A DNA stretch of 64,000 bases from Hyphomicrobiales bacterium (GTDB lineage: Bacteria > Pseudomonadota > Alphaproteobacteria > Rhizobiales > Xanthobacteraceae): positions 248,001 to 312,000 of the forward strand of contig JAFKKN010000004.1 in NCBI GenBank assembly GCA_017305535.1, given 5' to 3'. The notes below the pieces were generated by a model. The model saw nothing but the letters and a program-made list of their open reading frames with translations, searched no databases and was not told where the DNA came from. This document shows, piece after piece, positions 7,379 through 54,719 of this stretch; the first letter of the stretch is position 1; the number at the start of each line of letters is the position of its first letter. Made by a program: the position numbers and the translations under genes.

Positions 7379-8431
7379 ATGATGCGGACATCAAATCGTT
7401 TCTCTGCCATGGCCGCCGCCTTCATCGGCCTGCTGGCGATCCTGCTTGCGGCGCCGGCCACGGCCCGCAGCGTCATCGACTCCGCCGGCCGTACCGTCGA
7501 AGTCCCCGACACCATCTCGCGCGTGTTCGCCGCCGGTCCGCCGGCGTCGATCCTGCTTTACGTGCTGGCACCGCAGGACATGGTGGGTTGGGTTCGTGCG
7601 CCGCGCGCCGCGGAAAAGCCTTTCCTGTTGCCCTCGGCACAAGCCCTCCCGGAACTCGGCCGCCTCACCGGACGCGGCGATACATTAAACCTGGAGCGAT
7701 TGCTCGCCGCAAAGCCCGACGTTATCATCGACTTCGGCACCATCAACGACACCTATCGCTCGCTGGCCGACCGCGTTCAGGCACAGACCGGTATTCCCTA
7801 TCTGCTGATCGACGGCCGCTTTCAGAATACGCCCGCCGCCCTGCGGCTGCTGGCCGATATTCTGAACGTCAGGGAGCGCGGCGAGAAACTGGCGCGGGCT
7901 GCGGAGGAGATTTTCACGCAGGTCGACCAGGTTCTTGCGCAGGTCCCGCACGACGAGCGCCCGCGCGTCTATCTCGCGCGCGGTCCGGAAGGACTGGAGT
8001 CCGGCTCGCGTGGATCGATCAACACCGAGATCATCGAGCGCGCCGGCGCCGTCAACGTCGTCGAGGGTCTTCGCGAGAAAGGCGGCATCGTCAATGTGTC
8101 GCCGGAACAACTGATCGCATGGAAGCCCGATACCATCATCACGCTCGATCCGGCTTTCCGCCGCAGCGTCGCGGACAAGCCGGCCTGGGCGCCGGTACCG
8201 GCGGTGCGCGATCGTCGGGTTTTTCTCGCGCCCAACCTGCCCTATGGTTTCATCGACGCGCCGCCGTCGCTGAACCGTCTGATCGGGCTGACGTGGCTGC
8301 TGCATACGCTTTATCCCGACAAGGCTCCGGGCAACCTTCGCGATCAGGTTCGCGCGTTTTACCATCTGTTCTATCAGGTCGAGCCGAACGATGCGGATCT
8401 CAACCGTCTGCTCGATTCAACCGGAGGCTGA
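7379..8431 (+). CDS. ABC transporter binding protein, BtuF/FepB fold, possible MolA-like
   Basis: This 350-residue protein has a signal peptide (hydrophobic core to about residue 28, ending PATAR) and a class III periplasmic binding fold: VFAAGPPASILLYVLAP, then LLAAKPDVIIDFG, and a C-terminal lobe with SPEQLIAWKPDTII. Proteins of this fold bind siderophores, haem, cobalamin or, in Haemophilus MolA, molybdate and tungstate. The Mop gene 39 bp upstream favours molybdate or tungstate. Two ATGs lie in tandem (7379 and 7382) and the ribosome site is weak. No TonB-dependent receptor gene is present next to it, which argues mildly against a siderophore. Confidence 0.8.
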   Translation: MMRTSNRFSAMAAAFIGLLAILLAAPATARSVIDSAGRTVEVPDTISRVFAAGPPASILLYVLAPQDMVGWVRAPRAAEKPFLLPSAQALPELGRLTGRGDTLNLERLLAAKPDVIIDFGTINDTYRSLADRVQAQTGIPYLLIDGRFQNTPAALRLLADILNVRERGEKLARAAEEIFTQVDQVLAQVPHDERPRVYLARGPEGLESGSRGSINTEIIERAGAVNVVEGLREKGGIVNVSPEQLIAWKPDTIITLDPAFRRSVADKPAWAPVPAVRDRRVFLAPNLPYGFIDAPPSLNRLIGLTWLLHTLYPDKAPGNLRDQVRAFYHLFYQVEPNDADLNRLLDSTGG

Positions 8432-8440
8432 CGTTCGGCC

Positions 8441-9445
8441 TTGCGCACGGCAACCATTCTGCTTCTGCTGCTGGCGCTGCTGATCGCCGTGATGGTGATC
8501 GCATCGGGCGTCGGCCCTTACGCGGTGTCGCCGCCCGAGGTAGCGCGCGCACTCGTCCGGCGACTGCTCGGCGCCGCCGATCACGGCACCGTCGAGACCG
8601 TCATCTTCAACATCCGGTTGCCGCGCGTGGTCGCCGCCGGCATTGTCGGCGCCGCGCTTGCGGCGGCCGGCGCTGCCTATCAAAGCCTGTTTCGCAATCC
8701 GCTGGTGTCGCCTGACATTCTCGGCGTCTCCACCGGCGCGGGACTCGGTGCCGTCACCGGAATCCTGCTCGGCCTGCCGGTGACTGCGATTCAACTGATG
8801 GGGTTCACCGGCGGTCTCATCACCGTTCTTATCGTCGTCGTGATCGCGCGGACGCTACGCGGCGGCGGCGACGTCCTGGTGCTGGTACTCGCCGGCATCG
8901 TCATCGGCGCGCTGGCAGGCGCGGCCATCTCCCTCGTAAAGGTGCTGGCCGATCCTTACGATCAGCTTCCGGCGATCACGTTCTGGCTGCTGGGCAGCCT
9001 TGCCGGCGTGAAGGTGCATGACGTTGCCGCGACCGTTCCGATCGTCGCGCTCGGCCTCGCGCCGTTGGTTCTAATGCGCTGGCGCATCGGTGTGCTGTCG
9101 CTTGGTGACGATGAGGCCCGCGCGCTCGGCGTGAACGTGTCGCGGCTCCGTGCCATCGTCATCGTTGCCGCAACGCTGGTGACCGCGAGCGTGGTGGCGA
9201 TCTCCGGCGTGATCGGCTGGGTCGGGCTGATGGTCCCGCACATGGCGCGGCTCTTGGTCGGCCCGCGCTTCGACCGGTTGCTGCCGGCCTCGATCCTGCT
9301 CGGCGCGGCGTTTCTGATCGCGGTCGATACGCTGGCGCGCTCCGCCGCGCGCATCGAAATTCCGCTCGGTGTTCTCACCGCCGTGATCGGCGGGCCGATC
9401 TTCGTCTGGCTGCTGGCGCATAGCCGGCGAAGGATGTCGCCATGA
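8441..9445 (+). CDS. FecCD/BtuC-family ABC transporter permease
   Basis: This 334-residue inner-membrane permease belongs to the FecCD/BtuC family, shown by RLPRVVAAGIVGAALAAAG, LGVSTGAGLGA and the C-terminal SGVIGWVGLMVPH that contacts the ATPase. About nine or ten membrane segments are visible. The most likely start is the TTG at 8441, nine bases after the preceding stop, with GGAGG at 8423-8427 upstream of it. It forms the channel of the importer whose binding protein and ATPase flank it. The 3' end overlaps the ATPase gene by ATGA. Confidence 0.9.
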   Translation: MRTATILLLLLALLIAVMVIASGVGPYAVSPPEVARALVRRLLGAADHGTVETVIFNIRLPRVVAAGIVGAALAAAGAAYQSLFRNPLVSPDILGVSTGAGLGAVTGILLGLPVTAIQLMGFTGGLITVLIVVVIARTLRGGGDVLVLVLAGIVIGALAGAAISLVKVLADPYDQLPAITFWLLGSLAGVKVHDVAATVPIVALGLAPLVLMRWRIGVLSLGDDEARALGVNVSRLRAIVIVAATLVTASVVAISGVIGWVGLMVPHMARLLVGPRFDRLLPASILLGAAFLIAVDTLARSAARIEIPLGVLTAVIGGPIFVWLLAHSRRRMSP

Positions 9446-10206
9446 CCTTGCTGCGCGCGCGGGATCTGTCGATCGGCTATGGGCGCACCGTCATTGCGCG
9501 CGGCATCGATCTCGCGATCGAGGCCGGTGGCGTCACCTGCCTGCTCGGTCCCAACGGCATCGGCAAGACAACATTGTTCAAGACACTGCTCGGCCTCATT
9601 CCGCCGCTTGCCGGCAAGGTCGAAGTCGACGGCAACGACCTCGCCGTACTCGATCAACAGGCGGTTGCGCGCCACATCGCATATGTGCCGCAGGCACAGG
9701 TGACTGAGTTCACCTATTCCGTACTCGATCTCGTGGTAATGGGACGCACCGCGCATCTCGGCGCCTTCGCCGCGCCGAAAGCACATGACTACGCCATCGC
9801 GAGGACCGCATTGGAGCGGCTCGGCATTGCCGCGCTGGCGGATCGCGATTCCACGCGCATCTCCGGTGGGCAACGCCAACTCGCGCTGATTGCTCGCGCG
9901 CTGGCGCAACAGGCCCGCATCATCGTGATGGACGAGCCGACAGCGAGCCTCGATCTCGGCAACCGCATTCTCGTGCTGGATACGATCCACAGCCTCGCGG
10001 CGGATAATCTCGCCGTGGTGCTCTCGACCCACGAACCGGAGCACGCCTTCGTCGTCGCCGACCGTGTCGCGATCTTGGCGGCGAACGGCTTCCTCACCGG
10101 ACCGGTCGAGAGCGTGATGACATCCGACGAATTGTCGCGGCTTTATCGGGTCGCGCTTGTCGTCGAGAAAACCGCATCCGGGCGCTTCGTCGTGGGTCGG
10201 GCTTGA
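9442..10206 (+). CDS. FecE/BtuD-type ABC transporter ATP-binding protein
   Basis: This 254-residue ABC ATPase has Walker A GPNGIGKTT, signature ISGGQRQ, Walker B IIVMDEPTAS and H-loop STHEP. It pairs with FecCD-type permeases. It completes a four-gene set mop, binding protein, permease, ATPase transcribed in the same direction with 39, 9 and -4 bp junctions. Together they would import a metal chelate or, as proposed here, molybdate or tungstate. Confidence 0.9.
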   Translation: MTLLRARDLSIGYGRTVIARGIDLAIEAGGVTCLLGPNGIGKTTLFKTLLGLIPPLAGKVEVDGNDLAVLDQQAVARHIAYVPQAQVTEFTYSVLDLVVMGRTAHLGAFAAPKAHDYAIARTALERLGIAALADRDSTRISGGQRQLALIARALAQQARIIVMDEPTASLDLGNRILVLDTIHSLAADNLAVVLSTHEPEHAFVVADRVAILAANGFLTGPVESVMTSDELSRLYRVALVVEKTASGRFVVGRA

Positions 10207-10258: not shown

Positions 10259-10272
10259 TTGCAAGATATCAA
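10259..10272 (+). promoter_or_regulatory. Imperfect FNR/FixK-type box
   Basis: TTGCAAGATATCAA matches the FNR/FixK consensus TTGAT-N4-ATCAA at eight of ten defined positions, with a perfect right half-site. It lies 45 bp upstream of the NsrR-like palindrome and 180 bp before the first gene of the NO-linked cluster. Such a site would add oxygen-limited activation. No clearly spaced -10 element was found, so this stays a candidate. Confidence 0.4.
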
Positions 10273-10316
10273 ATCCTGACACTTCTCTCGTCAGCCGCCA
10301 TCTTCGGTTTCGAAAT

Positions 10317-10339
10317 AAGATGTATTGACAATATATCTT
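10317..10339 (+). promoter_or_regulatory. NsrR-like operator
   Basis: The 23-bp sequence consists of AAGATGTATTG, a central A, and CAATATATCTT. This is an 11-1-11 inverted repeat that matches the NsrR consensus (AAGATGYATTT and its complement) at 10 of 11 bases on the left and 9 of 11 on the right. A TTGACA hexamer (10325-10330) sits inside it, so a bound repressor would cover the -35 region; TATAGA at 10339-10344 is nearby. NsrR is an Fe-S repressor released by nitric oxide. The downstream gene content fits NO control. Confidence 0.65.
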
Positions 10340-10451
10340 ATAGAGGCAACACTCCCGGCACATGCGGCAGCCATATCCTGACCGATTGTATGACCGGCAG
10401 GATGCCGCAAGCCATGCTGACAGCAGCCCGCGACGGGCGACAGGAGCCACC

Positions 10452-10712
10452 ATGTGTCAGACCACCGAAGACGCCCACGTCACCGAAATCGATGTGCGCA
10501 GTCTCATCCCGGCGCAACGCCACGCCAAGATTTTCCAACTCGTTGGCCAGCTCGCGGCGGGTGACTCGTTCGTTCTGGTGAACGATCACGATCCCAAGCC
10601 GCTCTACTATCAACTCGAGGCCGAGCACCCGGGAGACTTCTCCTGGACCTATCTGGAAAAAGGTCCCGCGGTCTGGAAGGTCGAGATCGGCAAGCAGTTC
10701 AAGGCCGCCTGA
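10452..10712 (+). CDS. DUF2249 domain protein
   Basis: This 86-residue cytoplasmic protein is a single DUF2249 domain: DVRSLIPAQRHAKIF at residues 14-28, FVLVNDHDPKPLYYQ at about 40-54 and GPAVWKVEI near the end. The fold is predicted to be SirA/TusA-like. The family is common in denitrifying and NO-exposed bacteria, but its biochemical function is not established. The ATG at 10452 follows AGGAGCC. It is the first gene after the NsrR-like operator and is followed by a related double-domain gene at 12233. Confidence 0.85.
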   Translation: MCQTTEDAHVTEIDVRSLIPAQRHAKIFQLVGQLAAGDSFVLVNDHDPKPLYYQLEAEHPGDFSWTYLEKGPAVWKVEIGKQFKAA

Positions 10713-10865
10713 CGCACGGATCATCCATCCTCACTGAGGCGCGCATTCTGACATGCGCGCATCATGTCTCTCGTCGGAAACCAGTGTCTTTCGCAGGGGA
10801 CGGTTTGCCGACCGCGCCGGCGGCTCATCCCCCCGCCGGCGCCTTTTCCTGAAAGGAAGATCGCC

Positions 10866-12221
10866 GTGGTCGGCGTCGCTCTCTCGCGCTGGACGATGTC
10901 CTACTTCGCAACGGCCGTGCTCGCGCTGATCGCCGCCGAAGGATTGATGTTGGCGGGCATCGGCTATCCCCACACCGCGATTGCCGCGCCCGAGTCGTTG
11001 CTGCTGGTGCACCTCGTTGCGATCGGTTGGCTCAGTCTGCTGATGTGCGGCGCGCTATTCCAGTTCGTGCCGGTGCTGGTGAACCGGCCGCTTGACAGCA
11101 ATACATTGCCGCTGCCGACGCTGATCCTGCTGGTGGCCGGTCTCGCGGCCCTGCTACTCGGCTTCGCCCAGTTGGGCGGAACGATCCAGACGCCATTCGG
11201 ATTCTTCCCCGCCGCCGCGATCCTGCTCGGCGCCGGCTTCGTTCTGGTGCTGTGGAATCTCGGCCGCACGCTGTGGGCGGAGCGGCCGTTGCCACTGCCG
11301 GCGCGGTTCGTCGTGGTCGGGCTGTGCAGCCTCGCCGCGACGGTATTTCTAGGCATCATCTTCGCGCTGGTGCTGGGCGGTGTCGCCACGAAACCGCATC
11401 TGCTCGACGTCACGGCGCTCGGCCTGCCGATCCATGTGATCGCAGGGCTCGGCGGCTGGCTGACCTTCACCGCGTTCGGCGTCAGCTATCGTCTGTTGGC
11501 GATGTTCATGCTGGCTCCTGAATTGGAAGGCCGCACCACGCGCGGCGCGCTTTATGTCGGGACCGCCGCGCTCACTGTCGCCATCGTCGGCGGCATGGCA
11601 GCGATCTGTACATCGACCAATGTGATATGGCCCATTGGGGCCGCCGGTGGCCTCGGCTTGCTGGCGCTCGCGCTTTATGGCGGCGACATCCAGCATCTCT
11701 ATCGCGCGCGCAAGCGGCGCGTCATCGAACTCAACAGCCGCATGGCCGGCATTGCGCTGGCGAATCTCGCCGTGACCGTCGCGCTCGGTATCGGTTTGTT
11801 GTTCGCCGGCCGCTTCAACGATCATGTCGGTGTCGTCGTGTTCCTTGTCGCCTTCGCCTGGCTCACCGGATTCGGTCTCGCGAAGCTCTATAAAATCGTC
11901 GCCTTCCTCACCTGGCTCGAGTGTTACGGCCCGGTGCTCGGCAAAACCGCGACCCCGCGCGTGCAGGATCTCGTCACCGAGCCGCGCGCGCAAAAATGGT
12001 TCGCGTTGTATTTCGTCGCGGTGTGGATCGCCGCCATCTCATTGCTGTTGACGACGCCGTCGCTGTTCCGCCTCGGCGTCGGCGCGATGCTGCTCGCGAC
12101 CATCGGCATCGGCGTTCAACTGATGCGCACCCGCCGGCTCGCCAATGTCGCACCCGCGCTGCGCCTGCCGAAGGGCACGCGGCCGCCGCATCTTCTGCAT
12201 TCATCGGTCCAGCCAAGCTGA
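10866..12221 (+). CDS. Polytopic membrane protein in NO-linked cluster (NnrS or haem-copper-like)
   Basis: This 451-residue protein is almost entirely membrane-embedded, with about twelve hydrophobic segments. Conserved-looking histidines sit in or beside helices, for example LVHLVAIGWLS, LPIHVIAGLGGW and FNDHVGVVVF, which is the style of NnrS and haem-copper oxidase subunit I relatives. The frame runs upstream to 10764, but GTG 10866 has AAGGAAG seven bases before it and removes a polar Pro/Arg-rich leader. It is flanked by DUF2249 genes. Family membership is uncertain: I could not match it firmly to NnrS, so the role (NO tolerance, haem-linked electron transfer) is inferred from context. 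Confidence 0.65.
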   Translation: MVGVALSRWTMSYFATAVLALIAAEGLMLAGIGYPHTAIAAPESLLLVHLVAIGWLSLLMCGALFQFVPVLVNRPLDSNTLPLPTLILLVAGLAALLLGFAQLGGTIQTPFGFFPAAAILLGAGFVLVLWNLGRTLWAERPLPLPARFVVVGLCSLAATVFLGIIFALVLGGVATKPHLLDVTALGLPIHVIAGLGGWLTFTAFGVSYRLLAMFMLAPELEGRTTRGALYVGTAALTVAIVGGMAAICTSTNVIWPIGAAGGLGLLALALYGGDIQHLYRARKRRVIELNSRMAGIALANLAVTVALGIGLLFAGRFNDHVGVVVFLVAFAWLTGFGLAKLYKIVAFLTWLECYGPVLGKTATPRVQDLVTEPRAQKWFALYFVAVWIAAISLLLTTPSLFRLGVGAMLLATIGIGVQLMRTRRLANVAPALRLPKGTRPPHLLHSSVQPS

Positions 12222-12232
12222 AGGAGAGACGC

Positions 12233-12760
12233 ATGGCCACTCAATTCATCGATGTCGATGTCCGTCCCACCCTGCGCGCCGGCGGCGAGCCGTTCGGCGC
12301 GATCATGGCAGCGATCGCAAAGTTGCAGCCCGGTCAGGGCCTGCGGCTGCTCGCGACCTTCGAGCCGGTGCCGCTATTCCATGTGCTGGGCTCGAAGGGC
12401 TTCAGCCATGTGGCCAAGGAAATCGGCGGCGGCGATTGGGAGGTGCTGTTCTCGCCAGCCGCGACCGCATCTGTCGACACGACGCCGGCAAAGCCTGCGA
12501 GCGATACGGGCGCGTGGCCATCGCCGGTGCAGGAGATGGACAACCGCGACCTCGATCCGCCGGAGCCGATGGTTCGCATTCTCGCGGCGGCCGAGGCGAT
12601 GGCGAACGGCGAAGTGCTCTCGGCGCTGCTTTGCCGCGAGCCGATGTTCCTGCTGCCCGAGCTCGCGAAGCGCGGCCACGCCTGGCGCGGTGGTTTCGAA
12701 CCGGACGGCAAGACCTACAAGATTCTCATTCGCGTCGGCGCGGCAAAGGAAGCCGCATAA
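12233..12760 (+). CDS. Tandem DUF2249 domain protein
   Basis: This 175-residue protein holds two DUF2249-like domains. The first runs over residues 5-75 (DVDVRPTLRAGGEPF, LRLLATFEPVPLFHVLG, GDWEVLF), a Pro/Ala-rich linker covers about 78-100, and a second helical plus strand segment follows (PEPMVRILAAAEAM, LLCREPMFLLPELAKRG, FEPDGKTYKILI). The ATG at 12233 follows GAAGGAGAGACGC. It lies 11 bp after the membrane protein gene and 12 bp before the MIP18 gene, so one transcript is likely. Confidence 0.8.
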   Translation: MATQFIDVDVRPTLRAGGEPFGAIMAAIAKLQPGQGLRLLATFEPVPLFHVLGSKGFSHVAKEIGGGDWEVLFSPAATASVDTTPAKPASDTGAWPSPVQEMDNRDLDPPEPMVRILAAAEAMANGEVLSALLCREPMFLLPELAKRGHAWRGGFEPDGKTYKILIRVGAAKEAA

Positions 12761-12772
12761 CAAGGAGGCCGC

Positions 12773-13093
12773 ATGACTCCCGAAGCCAGTGAAGCCTTCG
12801 CCGGGGAGATCAAGGAAGCGCTGCGCCTCGTGATCGATCCCGAGCTTGGTTACAACATCGTCGATCTCGGGCTGGTCTATGAGGTCAACGTCGAGGACGG
12901 CGGCGTAGTGCATGTCGCCATGACCACGACGACACGCGGCTGCCCCGCGACCGGCTATCTCAAGGACGGCGCGCGCGACGCCGCATGGAGCGTACCCTCC
13001 GTCGAGTTCGTCGATATCGCGTTGACCTACGATCCGCCGTGGACACCGGACATGATGACACCCGACGCCAAGCGGCATCTCGGGATCATGTGA
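12773..13093 (+). CDS. MIP18/DUF59 family iron-sulfur assembly protein
   Basis: This 106-residue protein belongs to the MIP18 (DUF59, SufT/PaaD-like) family: ALRLVIDPELGYNIVDLGLVY at the start and TTRGCPATGYL with the single conserved cysteine at about residue 62. Family members help mature or target Fe-S clusters. AAGGAGG lies six bases before the ATG, a strong ribosome site. In an NO-exposed setting it could repair clusters damaged by NO; this is inference from neighbours and operator. Confidence 0.85.
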   Translation: MTPEASEAFAGEIKEALRLVIDPELGYNIVDLGLVYEVNVEDGGVVHVAMTTTTRGCPATGYLKDGARDAAWSVPSVEFVDIALTYDPPWTPDMMTPDAKRHLGIM

Positions 13094-13305
13094 TGACGAT
13101 AGCCGCACAACAATCCAAATCAACCGATCCAACGCCGCTGACCGGCGTGCTGCTGGCAAGCCTCGAAGCGCTGGCGAAAGTCGGCGAAGCCGATGCCGCC
13201 TGCCGTCTCGCCGGACAGGCCTGCGCCGAACTGCGCCACACCGACCCTGCCGCGTGGCAGCGCTTCAATGTCTTTCTGCATCGCATGATCAAGCATGTCT
13301 CGTGA
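13093..13305 (+). CDS. Small hypothetical protein, last gene of NO-linked run
   Basis: This 70-residue protein overlaps the preceding stop by one base, which supports translation. It is mostly helical in character (LLASLEALAKVGEADAACR, AGQACAELRH) with two cysteines and the C-terminal WQRFNVFLHRMIKHVS. I do not recognise a family. Context makes it a partner of the DUF2249 and MIP18 proteins. A palindromic repeat begins 34 bp after its stop. Confidence 0.65.
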   Translation: MTIAAQQSKSTDPTPLTGVLLASLEALAKVGEADAACRLAGQACAELRHTDPAAWQRFNVFLHRMIKHVS

Positions 13306-13338
13306 GGCGCGGCACACGCACATCAATTCCAACGACAT

Positions 13339-13421
13339 CGTCATTGCGAGCGAAGCGAAGCAATCCAGTCCTTTCTTCCCGGAATTTGGATTACTTCGTC
13401 GCTCTGCTCCTCGCAATGACG
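13339..13421. repeat. Palindromic intergenic repeat, family 3
   Basis: The element is bounded by CGTCATTGCGAG and its exact complement CTCGCAATGACG, with inner GAAGCGAAGCAATCCAG and GGATTACTTCGTCGCTC that also pair in part. The same element occurs at 57317-57399, and a right end lies near 25373-25391. It is a REP-like inverted repeat found between genes and separates the 70-residue gene from the DUF1971 gene. Confidence 0.8.
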
Positions 13422-13446
13422 ACCTACCGCACAGGACCATCACCGC

Positions 13447-13761
13447 GTGTCAAAAATTCCTCCCGAAATACCGCCCGGCTTTGTCGCTTACGGACGCTCG
13501 CCGGACTTCGTCTCCGACAATCTGCCGGCCAAGCTGCAATCGGCGCACAGCACCAAGGCCGGCACATGGGGCCTGCTGCATGTGCTCGAAGGCGTCGTGC
13601 ATTACCGGCTGGAAGCGCCGCATCAAGGTGACAGGATCGTGCGCGCCGGCGAGACCGTGGTGATCGAATCGCAAGTGCCACATCGCGTGGCATTTCTCGA
13701 ACCCGGCCGCATGTTCGTCGAATTCTACCGGCTGGCGGCGGCCAACGACGAGGCGGATTGA
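13447..13761 (+). CDS. DUF1971 (YeaR-like) cupin protein
   Basis: This 104-residue protein is a DUF1971 domain, as in Escherichia coli YeaR and the N-terminus of some TehB proteins: IPPEIPPGFVAYGRSP, then WGLLHVLEGVVHYRL and a late VPHRVAFLEPGRMFVEFYR, typical of a small cupin-like beta barrel. The start is a GTG at 13447 with AGGA ten bases upstream. E. coli yeaR is induced by nitrate and NO through NarL and NsrR, which fits the NsrR-like operator of the upstream cluster. Whether it shares that promoter across the repeat is not shown. Confidence 0.8.
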   Translation: MSKIPPEIPPGFVAYGRSPDFVSDNLPAKLQSAHSTKAGTWGLLHVLEGVVHYRLEAPHQGDRIVRAGETVVIESQVPHRVAFLEPGRMFVEFYRLAAANDEAD

Positions 13762-13778: not shown

Positions 13779-16100
13779 TCAACGCGACGCTGCTTCAGCC
13801 ACCGCTCGCGCGAGATTGGCCTCGTATTGCCCACGCGCCGACAAATACTGCTTCGGCCACGCCTGCCCGGCGAAGCCGATCTTCGCCGCCTCGTGCATCA
13901 CGAACGACGGATCGGCAAGATGCGGCCGCGCGATGGCGCAGAGGTCCGCGCGCCCCGCCGCGATAATCGAATTGGCATGGTCGGCCTCCGAGATCGCACC
14001 GACTGCGATGGTGGCGACATGTTCCTCGTTGCGGATCTTGTCGGAGAAGGGCGTCTGATAGAGGCGCCCGTAAACCGGCTTCTGATCGTTCACCACCTGC
14101 CCTGACGAGCAATCGATCAGATCGGCGCCCGCCTCCTTGAACATGCGCGCGAAGATCGCGGCATCTTCAGGCGTGTTTCCGCCCTCGAACCAGTCGTGCG
14201 CGGAGAGCCGCACCGACATCGGCTTCGAGGCCGGCCACGCCGCGCGTACCGCGCGAAACACCTCCAATGGAAACCGCGCACGGTTCTCATGGCTGCCGCC
14301 ATACGCGTCGTCGCGAATGTTGGTCAGCGGCGACAGAAAACTCGACAGCAGATAGCCGTGGGCCGCGTGCAGTTCGAGAATATCGAAGCCGATCCGCGCC
14401 GCGCGTTCGGTCGCCGCGACGAAATCCGCGATCACGCGATCCATGTCGGCGCGCGTCATCGCGCGCGGCATGTCGGACCGCGGCAGATATGGCAATGCCG
14501 ATGCCGAGATCAGCGGCCAGTTGCCGGTCGCCAGCGGCTCGTCCATGCCTTCCCACGCCACCCGGGTCGAGCCCTTGCGGCCGGCGTGGCCGAGCTGGAT
14601 GCCGATCTTGGCCGGCGTGTGCCGATGCACGTAATCAACGATCCGTTGCCAGGCCTTTTCCTGCGCGTCATTCCACAGGCCGAGACAGCCCGGCGTGATG
14701 CGCGCATCCGGTGAGGTGCATGTCATCTCGCCGAAGATCAACGCCGCGCCGCCGCCGGCCCGGGCGCCGAGATGCACCAGATGAAAATCGTTCGGCATGC
14801 CATCGACCGCGGAGTACATCGCCATCGGCGACACCATGATGCGGTTGTGCAAATGCAGGTCGCGCACCTTATAGGGCGTGAACATCGGCGGCGGCGGGCT
14901 GCCGTTGGATGACACCGCGACGCCGGAGCGCGCAGCAAACCAGCGCTCGTAATTTTCCAGCCACGCTTTGTCACGCAGCCGCAGGTTCTCGTGGCTGATG
15001 CGTTGCGAGCGCGTCAGCATCGAATACATGAACTGCTCCGGCTCCAGCGTATCGGCATAGCGTTGGCCCACCACCTCGAACCATTCCATGGCGTTGCGCG
15101 CCGCGTTCTGGATGCGCGCGACGTCGATGCGGCGGATCTCCTCATAACGCACCAGCACCTCGGCAATGCCGTCGCGGCCGTGACCGACGAGATCGAACTG
15201 CCGCGCCAGTTCGATAGCATCGTCGATGGCGAGCTTGGTGCCGGAGCCGATGGCGAAATGCGCGGTGTGCGCGCTGTCGCCCATCAGCACGACGTGGCTG
15301 CGACCGTTGAAGTGACTCCACGTCTCGCAGATCAGGCGACCGAAATTGAGCCAGCTCGATCCGCGCAGATGGCGCGCATTGCTCATCAGCTTGTGACCGT
15401 CGAGCGTCTCGGCGAACAGCTTCTCGCAGAATGCGATCGACTGATCCTGATCCATTCGGTCGAGGCCGTGCGCCTTGAACACCTCGTCGGTGGTCTCGAC
15501 GATGAAGGTCGAGGTGGTGTCGTCGAAGCGATAGATGTGCGCCTGAAACCAGCCGTGCGCGGTCTTGCGGAAATCAAAGGTGAAGGCGTCGAAACGCTTG
15601 TCGGTGCCGAGCCAGACGAAACGGTTCGGCCGCGTTACCATGTCCGGCTTGAAGACGTCGGCATACTTGGAACGAATGCGCGAATTGACGCCATCCGCCG
15701 CAATGATGAGGTCGGCGTCGGCGAACTCCTCGTCGCTCGCAACCTCGCGCTCGAACACCAGCCCGACGCCGAGCGCGAGGCAGCGCTCCTGCAAGATGTT
15801 CAGCATCCGCTTGCGGCCGATGCCGACGAAGCCATGGCCGGTGGTGCGAATCCGCCGCCCCTTGAACAGCAGCTCGATATCGTCCCAGTGATTAAAGGAA
15901 TCCTCGATGGTAGCGGCGGTTTCGGGGTCCCATTGCCGCATCGCCTGCATGGTGGCATCGGAAAACACCACACCCCAACCGAAGGTATCGAACGGCCGGT
16001 TACGCTCGACGACGGTGATATGGTGCTGCGGGTGCAGCCGCTTCATCAGCAGCGCAAAGTACAAACCCGCCGGGCCGCCGCCGATGCAAACAATCCGCAT
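13779..16100 (-). CDS. Bifunctional salicylyl/2-aminobenzoyl-CoA monooxygenase-reductase
   Basis: This 773-residue protein is a natural fusion. Residues 1-380 form a FAD monooxygenase with GGGPAGLYF at residues 7-15 and GDSAHTAHF in the second FAD motif. Residues about 400-773 form an old yellow enzyme (OYE) domain starting [15 protein letters not shown] with [12 protein letters not shown] and a catalytic-type LHAAHGYLL. Known relatives hydroxylate and reduce 2-aminobenzoyl-CoA (Azoarcus) or hydroxylate salicylyl-CoA. The ATG at 16100 follows GGAGGGAA; an ATG 18 bases earlier overlaps that site and was not chosen. It converges with the DUF1971 gene. The exact substrate is not determined here. 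Confidence 0.88.
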
Positions 16101-16167
16101 GAGCTTCCCTCCACCCATAACACCTGATCGGAAATTCGCGTTACAGGCGGATTTCCAACACGAGAGC

Positions 16168-37943: not shown

Positions 37944-38065
37944 GTCATGCCCGCGCGTAGCCGTTCGAAGAACGGCGTCGCTGTCCTCGCCTATGTCGCG
38001 GGCATCCACGTCCTGGATATCTCCAGTTCAAAGACGTGAATGGCCGGAACAAGTCCGGCCATGAC
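37944..38065. repeat. Palindromic repeat, family 1, with one 36-bp module
   Basis: GTCATGCCCGCG on the left and GAACAAGTCCGGCCATGAC on the right bound the element. One copy of the GCCGTTC-GAA-GAACGGC module is inserted in its left arm, as at 25156 where three copies are present. Confidence 0.8.
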
Positions 38066-53707: not shown

Positions 53708-53882
53708 CCAGATGGGATAGGTCAACCGGCGATTGGCCACACCAGTTCCCGGTAAAACCCGACAGACCTCTCACCTTTCCGGGAATGCATCCTGGCCATG
53801 CTTTAAAAGATATATTTATAATATTGCTTTTAGCGTGCCTCCGGCGTAGGGTGGCTCCCGTATCAAGATGAGGAGAAAAGCA

Positions 53883-54059
53883 ATGTCAGGAGCCTCTTCG
53901 ATCGGTGAAGCGCTTGCACGGCCGTTCCTTTTTCCCGGCACATTTGCTTGCAACGCGCTTGGTTTACCGCAATCCGAATACAGCGATCTGGTCCGCATGC
54001 TGGTCAATTCACTGGTCTGGACCATACTCGGCGTCATCATCGTTGCCTTGGTGGTGTAA
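53883..54059 (+). CDS. Small single-span membrane protein
   Basis: This 58-residue protein ends in one hydrophobic helix (LVNSLVWTILGVIIVALVV) after a polar N-terminus with GEALARPFLFPGTF. AGGAG lies seven bases before the ATG, and an AT-rich promoter-like stretch (53806-53830) precedes it. No family is recognised. The good ribosome site supports expression. Confidence 0.6.
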   Translation: MSGASSIGEALARPFLFPGTFACNALGLPQSEYSDLVRMLVNSLVWTILGVIIVALVV

Positions 54060-54316
54060 CGATGCCGCGAACGACGCTACGCCTGCGGCACGACAGATGC
54101 GCCCGTTTCTGTCTGCATCGCCTTCATATCGCGGTTCATCTATTGAGCGCCTTGCTGCTGCCGCCGCCCTTTAGCGATCATGCAGCATCCGTGAAAGCCG
54201 TCGTCAGGATTCGGCCGCACCACCGCACATGAGACGTGCCCTGTATCGTCACATCGTGCCGCGGACCGGCGACACCTCGCGGTCGTGCTGCGACTGACCG
54301 CGCATCTTTTTGAAGA

Positions 54317-54380: not shown

Positions 54381-54719
54381 ATGACGTTTGTCGTCACCGA
54401 CAACTGTATCAAGTGCAAATACATGGACTGCGTCGAAGTCTGTCCGGTGGACTGCTTCTATGAAGGCGAGAACATGCTGGTGATCCATCCGGACGAATGC
54501 ATCGATTGCGGCGTCTGCGAACCGGAATGTCCGGCGGAAGCGATTTTGCCAGATTCAACGCCGGGGTTGGAAAGCTGGCTGCAACTCAACGCCGAATACG
54601 CGCCGCAATGGCCCAACATCACCCAGAAACGCGACCCGCCGCCGGACGCGAAAGCGTTCGATGGCGTCAAGGACAAGCTGAAGCAATTTTTCTCGCCGAA
54701 GCCGGGGCAAGGGGATTGA
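54381..54719 (+). CDS. fdxA: 7Fe ferredoxin FdxA
   Basis: This 112-residue ferredoxin has the 7Fe pattern: [14 protein letters not shown] in the first half and [12 protein letters not shown] in the second, consistent with one [3Fe-4S] and one [4Fe-4S] cluster. The C-terminal extension of about 50 residues is typical of the FdxA family. It carries electrons in the cytoplasm; partners are not indicated by neighbours. Confidence 0.95.

Follow-up and report, generated by a model that had tools for sequence, protein, structure and literature searches.

NsrR is a repressor that senses nitric oxide (NO), and yeaR of Escherichia coli is one of its targets. Here we describe an operon of six genes (A–F) behind a candidate NsrR operator in a 64,000-nucleotide stretch of a Hyphomicrobiales bacterium (Xanthobacteraceae; assembly GCA_017305535.1, contig JAFKKN010000004.1, positions 248,001 to 312,000). 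This whole stretch is called the window below, and positions are counted from its first letter. Two of the operon's products, A and C, are DUF2249 proteins, and B is a membrane protein with a predicted oxidase fold.

According to passages of the 2005 survey by Rodionov et al. (PMC1274295), COG4309 (DUF2249) genes occur under predicted NsrR sites in three beta-proteobacteria and together with NnrR-regulated nor genes in three rhizobia, and Rhodobacter capsulatus E1F1 is the only alphaproteobacterium in which NsrR was found. The present locus resembles these cases in having DUF2249 genes under predicted NsrR control. However, COG4309 was tied to norB in the survey, whereas DUF2249 is tied here to B, C, and D, and the same passages contain no description of B. 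DUF2249 has also been linked with nitrate respiration in Thermus thermophilus (DrpA/DrpB; PMC6282519) and with denitrification in haloarchaea (PMC11218638); the relevant sections of these papers propose a nitrate-sensor role and mention neither a B-type nor a MIP18 neighbor. No description of B or of the whole operon was found in the literature searched, whose scope did not extend to subscription papers. As far as these sources go, the occurrence of DUF2249 in NsrR and NnrR regulons has been known since 2005 (PMC1274295), and the operon around the oxidase-fold protein B is the new part.

An NsrR-type operator before a conserved operon

The operator, the putative promoter, and the six genes are as follows.

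10317–10339, + strand: candidate NsrR-type operator, 23-bp palindrome, AAGATGTATTGACAATATATCTT
10325–10330, + strand: TTGACA, likely −35 box inside the operator (GAC centre in 42/48 sites)
10348–10353, + strand: AACACT, likely weak −10 box, 17 bp past the −35 box
10452–10712, + strand: gene A, single DUF2249 protein (PF10006), 86 amino acids (aa)
10866–12221, + strand: gene B, 451-aa membrane protein (GTG start chosen by us)
12233–12760, + strand: gene C, protein with two DUF2249 domains (PF10006), 175 aa
12773–13093, + strand: gene D, MIP18/FeS_assembly_P protein (PF01883), 106 aa
13093–13305, + strand: gene E, 70-aa protein, no family over cut-off, relatives at the loci
13447–13761, + strand: gene F, DUF1971 (YeaR/TehB-type cupin) protein (PF09313), 104 aa

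The palindrome is symmetric at 10 of its 11 arm pairs. Among the seven window matches to the published NsrR consensus gATGyAT-N5-ATrCATc (PMC1274295) with up to three mismatches, it ranks first with 1 mismatch in 14 positions, and the number of matches itself is not above chance (6.2 expected). The pattern AAGATRTATTNNNAATAYATCTT, to which the palindrome has no mismatch, occurs with up to three mismatches at two sites in the 64-kb window against 0.01 expected. Compared with an enteric consensus, 17 of 23 positions match. The initial annotation had reported this palindrome with a match to the NsrR operator at 19 of 22 arm positions and an overlapping TTGACA hexamer. The palindrome and the overlap are both present, the hexamer lying inside the palindrome; the figure of 19 of 22 was not exactly reproduced and depends on the reference used.

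Conservation upstream of orthologues had been set beforehand as one test of this operator. We scored the sequence upstream of A (upstream of B at loci without A) in the best 80 of the 159 loci confirmed by a scan of a species-genome collection with B; all locus counts below refer to these 80. Upstream sequence was lacking at two of them, leaving 78 usable loci. A site with at least 19/23 matches to AAGATRTATTNNNAATAYATCTT, whose three N always match, was kept at 47 of the 78, and the best score never exceeded 18/23 in 20 mononucleotide shuffles of each stretch. Its conservation before orthologues and its enrichment over expectation rule out a chance palindrome. On a tree of 56 B proteins, the motif-bearing members comprise alpha-, beta- (Candidimonas), and gamma-proteobacteria (Rhodanobacter and Lysobacteraceae), and the motif label changes nine times. 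The nearest relatives by protein B are metagenome-assembled genomes of Hyphomicrobiales and Xanthobacteraceae.

A logo of 48 sites (the 47 loci and the window's own site) shows that the 23 bp stand out together with two A/T-rich bases at each end. The flanks are otherwise not conserved, except for A at +33 (43/48) and T at +37 (38/48), and this nAnnnT element sits 17 bp after TTGACA. The centre of the operator is GAC, reading TTGACA towards the operon, in the 42 sites mentioned above and GTC in none of the 48. Since a bare palindrome would be indifferent to orientation, the centre of the operator very likely doubles as the −35 box of the operon promoter. A plain sigma-70 scan listed no promoter at the operator, because AACACT is a poor −10 box.

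The window has a G+C content of 63.8% and belongs to a genome of 4.73 Mb that is 99.4% complete. Genes A–F lie on one strand (10452–13761) and are separated by 153, 11, 12, −1, and 141 bp; B to E are thus nearly contiguous, and the wider gaps lie between A and B and between E and F. By profile detection at the 80 loci, some of which lie on contigs that end early, C was found at 79, D at 75, E at 50, and F at 17, and 59 of the loci have an A-type gene whose start lies no more than 1.5 kb upstream of B. The conserved core of the operon is B-C-D, usually with A, and E and F are looser members. The initial annotation had grouped all six genes into one cluster and had named mutual independence of the genes as the observation that would speak against it. 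A, B, C, and D were not independent of each other across the 80 loci, and this part of the grouping stands, whereas E and F are only loosely attached. Comparison across genomes thus establishes the conserved gene order and the placement of the predicted operator over the −35 box.

Protein B and the other products of the operon

Neither Pfam (E ≤1) nor NCBIfam gave a match to B, and in the 40 plasmid records listed out of 115 it appears as a hypothetical protein or without annotation. An AlphaFold2 model built with 56 relatives has 12 long helices and a mean pLDDT (predicted local distance difference test score) of 93.2. The best Foldseek match to this model was a cbb3 oxidase (E 4.9e-7, TM score 0.65, root-mean-square deviation 6.6 Å), followed by cNOR and the aa3 and bo3 oxidases. 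According to the model, B has the fold of heme-copper-oxidase subunit I and is closest to cbb3. Searches of solved structures by sequence gave no relevant relative of B, and neither a viral-structure search (no match at E ≤0.001) nor PHROGs (no match below E 0.09) gave a relative.

The 12 long helices are common to the B model and to heme-copper oxidase subunit I (cbb3 CcoN and cNOR NorB), but the sequence link is weak and the metal ligands differ. Only two histidines, H49 in helix 2 and H190 in helix 6, are invariant in the 56 B sequences, compared with six invariant histidine columns in the 11 CcoN/NorB rows from the same loci. Four of the six histidines that bind the two hemes and the second metal are not kept in B. 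Canonical oxidase or NO-reductase chemistry in B is therefore unlikely, and we rejected B as a canonical member of either class on account of these four ligands.

NnrS (PF05940), likewise a membrane protein of NO-responsive regulons, is the other point of comparison. An NnrS model obtained by the same method (pLDDT 87) also had cbb3 as its best match (E 1.4e-4), as did the model of B. However, NnrS keeps six histidines (four in 12/12 rows and two more in 11/12), whereas B keeps two. PF05940 was found in 0 of 56 B members among the matches listed at E ≤1, and with no Pfam match and no significant profile match B was not assigned to NnrS itself. COX1 matched 3 of the 56 B members weakly (best E 5.5e-4). 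As this match is weak and profile comparisons gave nothing significant, the kinship of B rests on the fold.

At E ≤1e-10, B matched in 44 of 398 genomes of the phylum, in 13 of them below 1e-100. Six distant homologues (E ~1e-30) form a branch in other groups of the phylum (L157, L158, L159, L160, L164, and L166). H190 is present in 6/6 and H49 in 5/5 of them, the sixth being a fragment, and a DUF2249-type gene was detected near two of the six, in one case weakly.

The remaining products, except for E, belong to known families. A scored 102.7 bits with PF10006 (cut-off 29.5; E 9.4e-30), and its conserved positions are R23-H24 and an NDHDPxPL motif, H24 being present in 60/63 rows and H46 in 61/63. 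C scored 119.8 bits with PF10006, and its second domain also passes the cut-off for TusA (PF01206; 33.8 against 28.6 bits). In an alignment by eye, the place of the CPxP cysteine of TusA is occupied in C by a proline (P109) in 79/80 rows, and C was rejected as a TusA sulfur carrier for this reason; C also lacks the NDHDP histidine of A. DUF2249 is thereby narrowed to a form in C whose TusA-related domain lacks the sulfur-carrying cysteine and a form in A that keeps its histidines. Searches of solved structures by sequence gave nothing relevant to A or C. D scored 65.6 bits with PF01883 (cut-off 23.5), keeps C57 in 76/76 rows, and has TM0487 among its solved relatives; its best score with the SufT and PaaD equivalogs of NCBIfam was 90 bits, below the cut-off of 143.4. 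In E, C37 is present in 51/51 rows. F scored 59.8 bits with PF09313 (cut-off 23.1; E 2.6e-16) and thus shares DUF1971 with YeaR. Here, however, F stands at the end of a larger operon, to which it is loosely attached (17/80 loci).

The proposal that the Thermus DUF2249 protein DrpA senses nitrate (in the relevant section of PMC6282519) raises the question of whether the DUF2249 proteins of this operon are nitrogen-oxide sensors, with B as their membrane anchor or signal partner. The histidines conserved in A agree with such a role. Against it, the operon encodes no output domain, its most constant part is B-C-D, and C is without the NDHDP histidine of A. We regard a sensor system of this kind as most improbable.

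Regulators and NsrR-type sites beyond the operon

At 34 of the 80 loci, the flank (the retrieved sequence, up to 10 kb) contains an Rrf2 gene whose product has an NsrR-type cysteine cluster. Such genes flank 28/47 motif loci compared with 6/33 others (Fisher p 2.4e-4, the loci being related); the two loci that lack upstream sequence are counted among the 33. Conversely, a Crp/FNR gene is near 4/47 motif loci compared with 19/33 others (p 2.5e-6), and six of these 33 have a TTTGC-N6-GCAAA box upstream. With NsrR near motif loci and Crp/FNR near the others, swaps between two NO-linked control systems may have taken place on this operon. A phylogenetically paired test of the motif against Crp was not significant (6 pairs).

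The genome of the window has an nsrR-type gene (L001:1498-1953), and a globin gene is divergent from it. Its product has three clustered cysteines, is 46% identical to E. coli NsrR, and has Streptomyces NsrR as its best solved relative. The conserved operator (47/78 loci), the nsrR-type genes in the flanks (34/80), and the joint occurrence of A, B, C, and D support the earlier claim of NsrR control well, and it is highly probable that the operon is under NsrR-type control.

The operator could instead be that of another Rrf2 protein such as RirA, so that the operon would answer iron or redox state and not NO. The regulator in the window's genome has nearly equal family scores for RirA and NsrR, its cysteine spacing is RirA-like, a FecBCD-type transporter lies just upstream of the operon, and one genome of the genus (G093) keeps the sites without any Rrf2 match. 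However, the site differs from the published NsrR consensus at a single position in 14, the best solved relative and the identity given above point to NsrR, and regulators adjoining the cluster score higher with NsrR than with RirA in 3/3 tested. The neighbors are globin, DUF1971, ferredoxin, and denitrification genes. Control by RirA or a similar protein therefore appears very unlikely.

For a survey of the window's family, 149 genomes were sampled evenly from a larger group and scanned for the motif with up to three mismatches. It was found in 20 genomes, and a reversed control pattern in none. NsrR (E ≤1e-20) is present in 18 of these 20 compared with 54 of 149 overall (p 1.4e-7; counted by genus, 11/11 compared with 12/36, p 8e-5), and B in 14 of 20 compared with 22 of 149 (p 5e-10). 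In four of the six motif genomes without B, the site lies 0.04–2.1 kb from nsrR (G052, G054, G084, and G087). In another (G112), by eye, it precedes an F-like (DUF1971-like) open reading frame (ORF), which thus has a site of its own. Ensifer canadensis also has an NsrR-like Rrf2 gene and a DUF1971 gene in divergent orientation, and a similar element was seen by eye in the region that separates them. In G040 (L213:4270), a perfect NsrR-type palindrome lies close to where a 425-aa gene begins; this gene looks globin-sensor-like by eye.

In the window's genome, the pattern AAGNNRTATNNNNNATAYNNCTT with at most one mismatch occurs at three sites (the operon, the nsrR promoter, and 53807–53829), and the reversed control at one. 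In the genus, the motif marks nsrR, the A–F operon, and a pair of genes for a small membrane protein and a ferredoxin. The operon site is present in 6/6 genus genomes with B, and the nsrR site in 6/6 with nsrR. The element before nsrR scores 18–21/23 in 10/10 regions chosen by us. A score of 18 by itself is on the border of what chance would give, and the constant form of the element (AAGCAATAT first) is a better argument than its score. The third site and the genes behind it are as follows.

53807–53829, + strand: second candidate NsrR-type site of the window, in 7/7 genus genomes
53884–54060, + strand: 58-aa small membrane protein, no Pfam match, behind the site in 7/7 genus genomes
54381–54719, + strand: FdxA-type ferredoxin gene (Fer4 and DUF3470 over cut-offs), in 7/7 genus genomes

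This site also lies ~67 bp from a divergent short-chain dehydrogenase gene.

Denitrification context and the role of the operon

A scored nar, nir, nor, nos, or nnrS gene occurs in the flank at 34 of the 80 loci. On pSymA of Sinorhizobium meliloti, A-B-C lie between norCBQD-hemN and nnrS-nirK-nirV-nnrR (names from translations), and in Aminobacter SR38, B-C-D lie directly behind nosRZDFYLX. Among the 149 family genomes, NirK over the cut-off is present in 16/22 with B compared with 13/127 without B (p 2.3e-9). The association holds without the window's own genus (10/16 compared with 12/126, p 4.6e-6) and when counted by genus (9/11 compared with 5/36, p 6e-5), and the odds ratio with NirK is 23 for B and 10 for NorB. 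No significant association was observed between B and NorB (4/22 compared with 10/127, p 0.13). Co-occurrence with nir and nor genes, which had been proposed as a check, was accordingly borne out for NirK and not for NorB.

These neighborhoods bring up the possibility that the operon serves the assembly or maturation of NosZ, Nor, NirK, or cbb3, and that its NO control follows that of its clients. The two gene orders above, the membership of D in the iron-sulfur (Fe-S) assembly family PF01883, the DUF2249 gene before ccoN in the window's genome, and the finding of COG4309 with norB in the 2005 survey (PMC1274295) are consistent with it. However, 37 of 47 motif loci have no scored denitrification gene in the flank, other DUF2249 genes are next to canonical oxidase genes in 0/10 cases at the 80 loci, and no single client enzyme is constant. 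We consider an assembly set rather unlikely. The notion that DUF2249 genes always adjoin heme-copper oxidases, which came from the gene before ccoN in the window's genome, was rejected by this same count, in which an eleventh DUF2249 row was left out as the cluster's own A.

In that genome (G000:C4, L153:3280-3979), the DUF2249 gene and a 145-aa gene precede ccoNOQP-like genes, with a cupredoxin-like ORF upstream, and no good NsrR-type site was found in the region. Genes similar to the 145-aa one adjoin NsrR-type sites in L103, L107, and L111.

NirK and three PF00115 oxidases, of which we read one as CcoN, are encoded in the genome of the window, and no NorB match was obtained there at E ≤1e-40. 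NirK over the cut-off without a NorB match is found in 20 of 29 family genomes with NirK. Such genomes invite the explanation that NO is removed by B, acting as a sink or a non-canonical reductase in place of NO reductase. The oxidase/NO-reductase fold predicted for B, the NsrR-type control, and 12 of 22 B genomes (the window's included) with NirK over the cut-off and no NorB match fit this explanation. But B has two invariant histidines against six in the CcoN/NorB rows, it also co-occurs with NorB (the 4/22 genomes above, and Sinorhizobium), and sinks like Hmp were outside the search. A stand-in for NO reductase is distinctly unlikely. A related picture, in which B is a separate branch of the heme-copper-oxidase fold without the canonical reductase site and consumes or sequesters NO by means of a heme or metal bound through H49 and H190, so that bacteria with NirK and no NO reductase tolerate their own NO, is also unlikely.

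On balance, we lean towards an NsrR-repressed NO-tolerance operon around an NnrS-like protein B. The initial annotation had proposed an NO-tolerance or Fe-S repair module, and NO tolerance is probably the purpose of the operon. As judged from what is known of NsrR, Fe-S NsrR would sit on 10317–10339 and block RNA polymerase while NO is absent. NO would damage the cluster of NsrR, which would leave the operator, and A–F would be made. The steps that follow are less certain. B could be a catalytically reduced NnrS-like relative of heme-copper-oxidase subunit I that uses H49 and H190 to hold a heme, another metal, or NO within the membrane, with A and C as its cytosolic DUF2249 partners and D handling Fe-S clusters or metal. 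In the presence of NO, for example from NirK, the products of A–D may then protect iron and copper enzymes or restore their function. This NnrS-like picture of B as a heme- or NO-binding protein is drawn from the model and is tentative.

Several observations weigh against an NsrR-repressed NO-tolerance operon with an NnrS-like B. The kinship of B rests on a model with a root-mean-square deviation of 6.6 Å to cbb3, and profile comparisons of B with CcoN/NorB and with NnrS were not significant. A scored denitrification gene flanks 10/47 motif loci compared with 24/33 loci without the motif. A phylogenetically paired test of the motif against nearby NsrR was not significant (6 pairs). With NCBIfam, the window genome's regulator scored 139.2 bits for RirA (cut-off 193) and 137.6 for NsrR (cut-off 182). 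Finally, G093, of the window's genus and 99% complete, keeps the operon and ferredoxin sites, and no Rrf2 match was found in it at E ≤1e-3, nor in the two oxidase-gene regions inspected.

The locus adds a compact NsrR-type regulon in alphaproteobacteria, where the 2005 survey (PMC1274295) reports NsrR once, and places an unannotated membrane protein with a predicted oxidase fold at its centre. B may be an element of bacterial NO tolerance that has gone unnoticed, and it bears on how bacteria with NirK and no NorB match cope with the NO that they produce.

Within the operon, the gap between A and B contains a further feature.

10814–10842, + strand: strong hairpin, 10-bp GC stem followed by CTTTT (from the fold of the gap)

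The hairpin is absent from the listing of a terminator scan; it is possibly an attenuator or processing site and could serve to cap A or to make its transcript more stable. A crude pattern found a similar GC stem with T's at 7/59 other loci. In the gap between E and F, a repeat-like sequence with inverted parts was seen by eye at 13335–13410, and this repeat may have split F from the operon.

The FecBCD-type ATP-binding cassette transporter just upstream of the operator occupies 7379–10206. On the other side, a 779-aa fusion of a flavin adenine dinucleotide monooxygenase-type domain and an old-yellow-enzyme-type domain (13779–16118, − strand) adjoins F. Near-identical palindromes, ATGGCCGGGACAAGCCCGGCCAT or close to it, occur at 38040, 43511, 48722, 50795, 57243, 57419, and 59529, and are likely repetitive extragenic palindrome (REP)-like elements.

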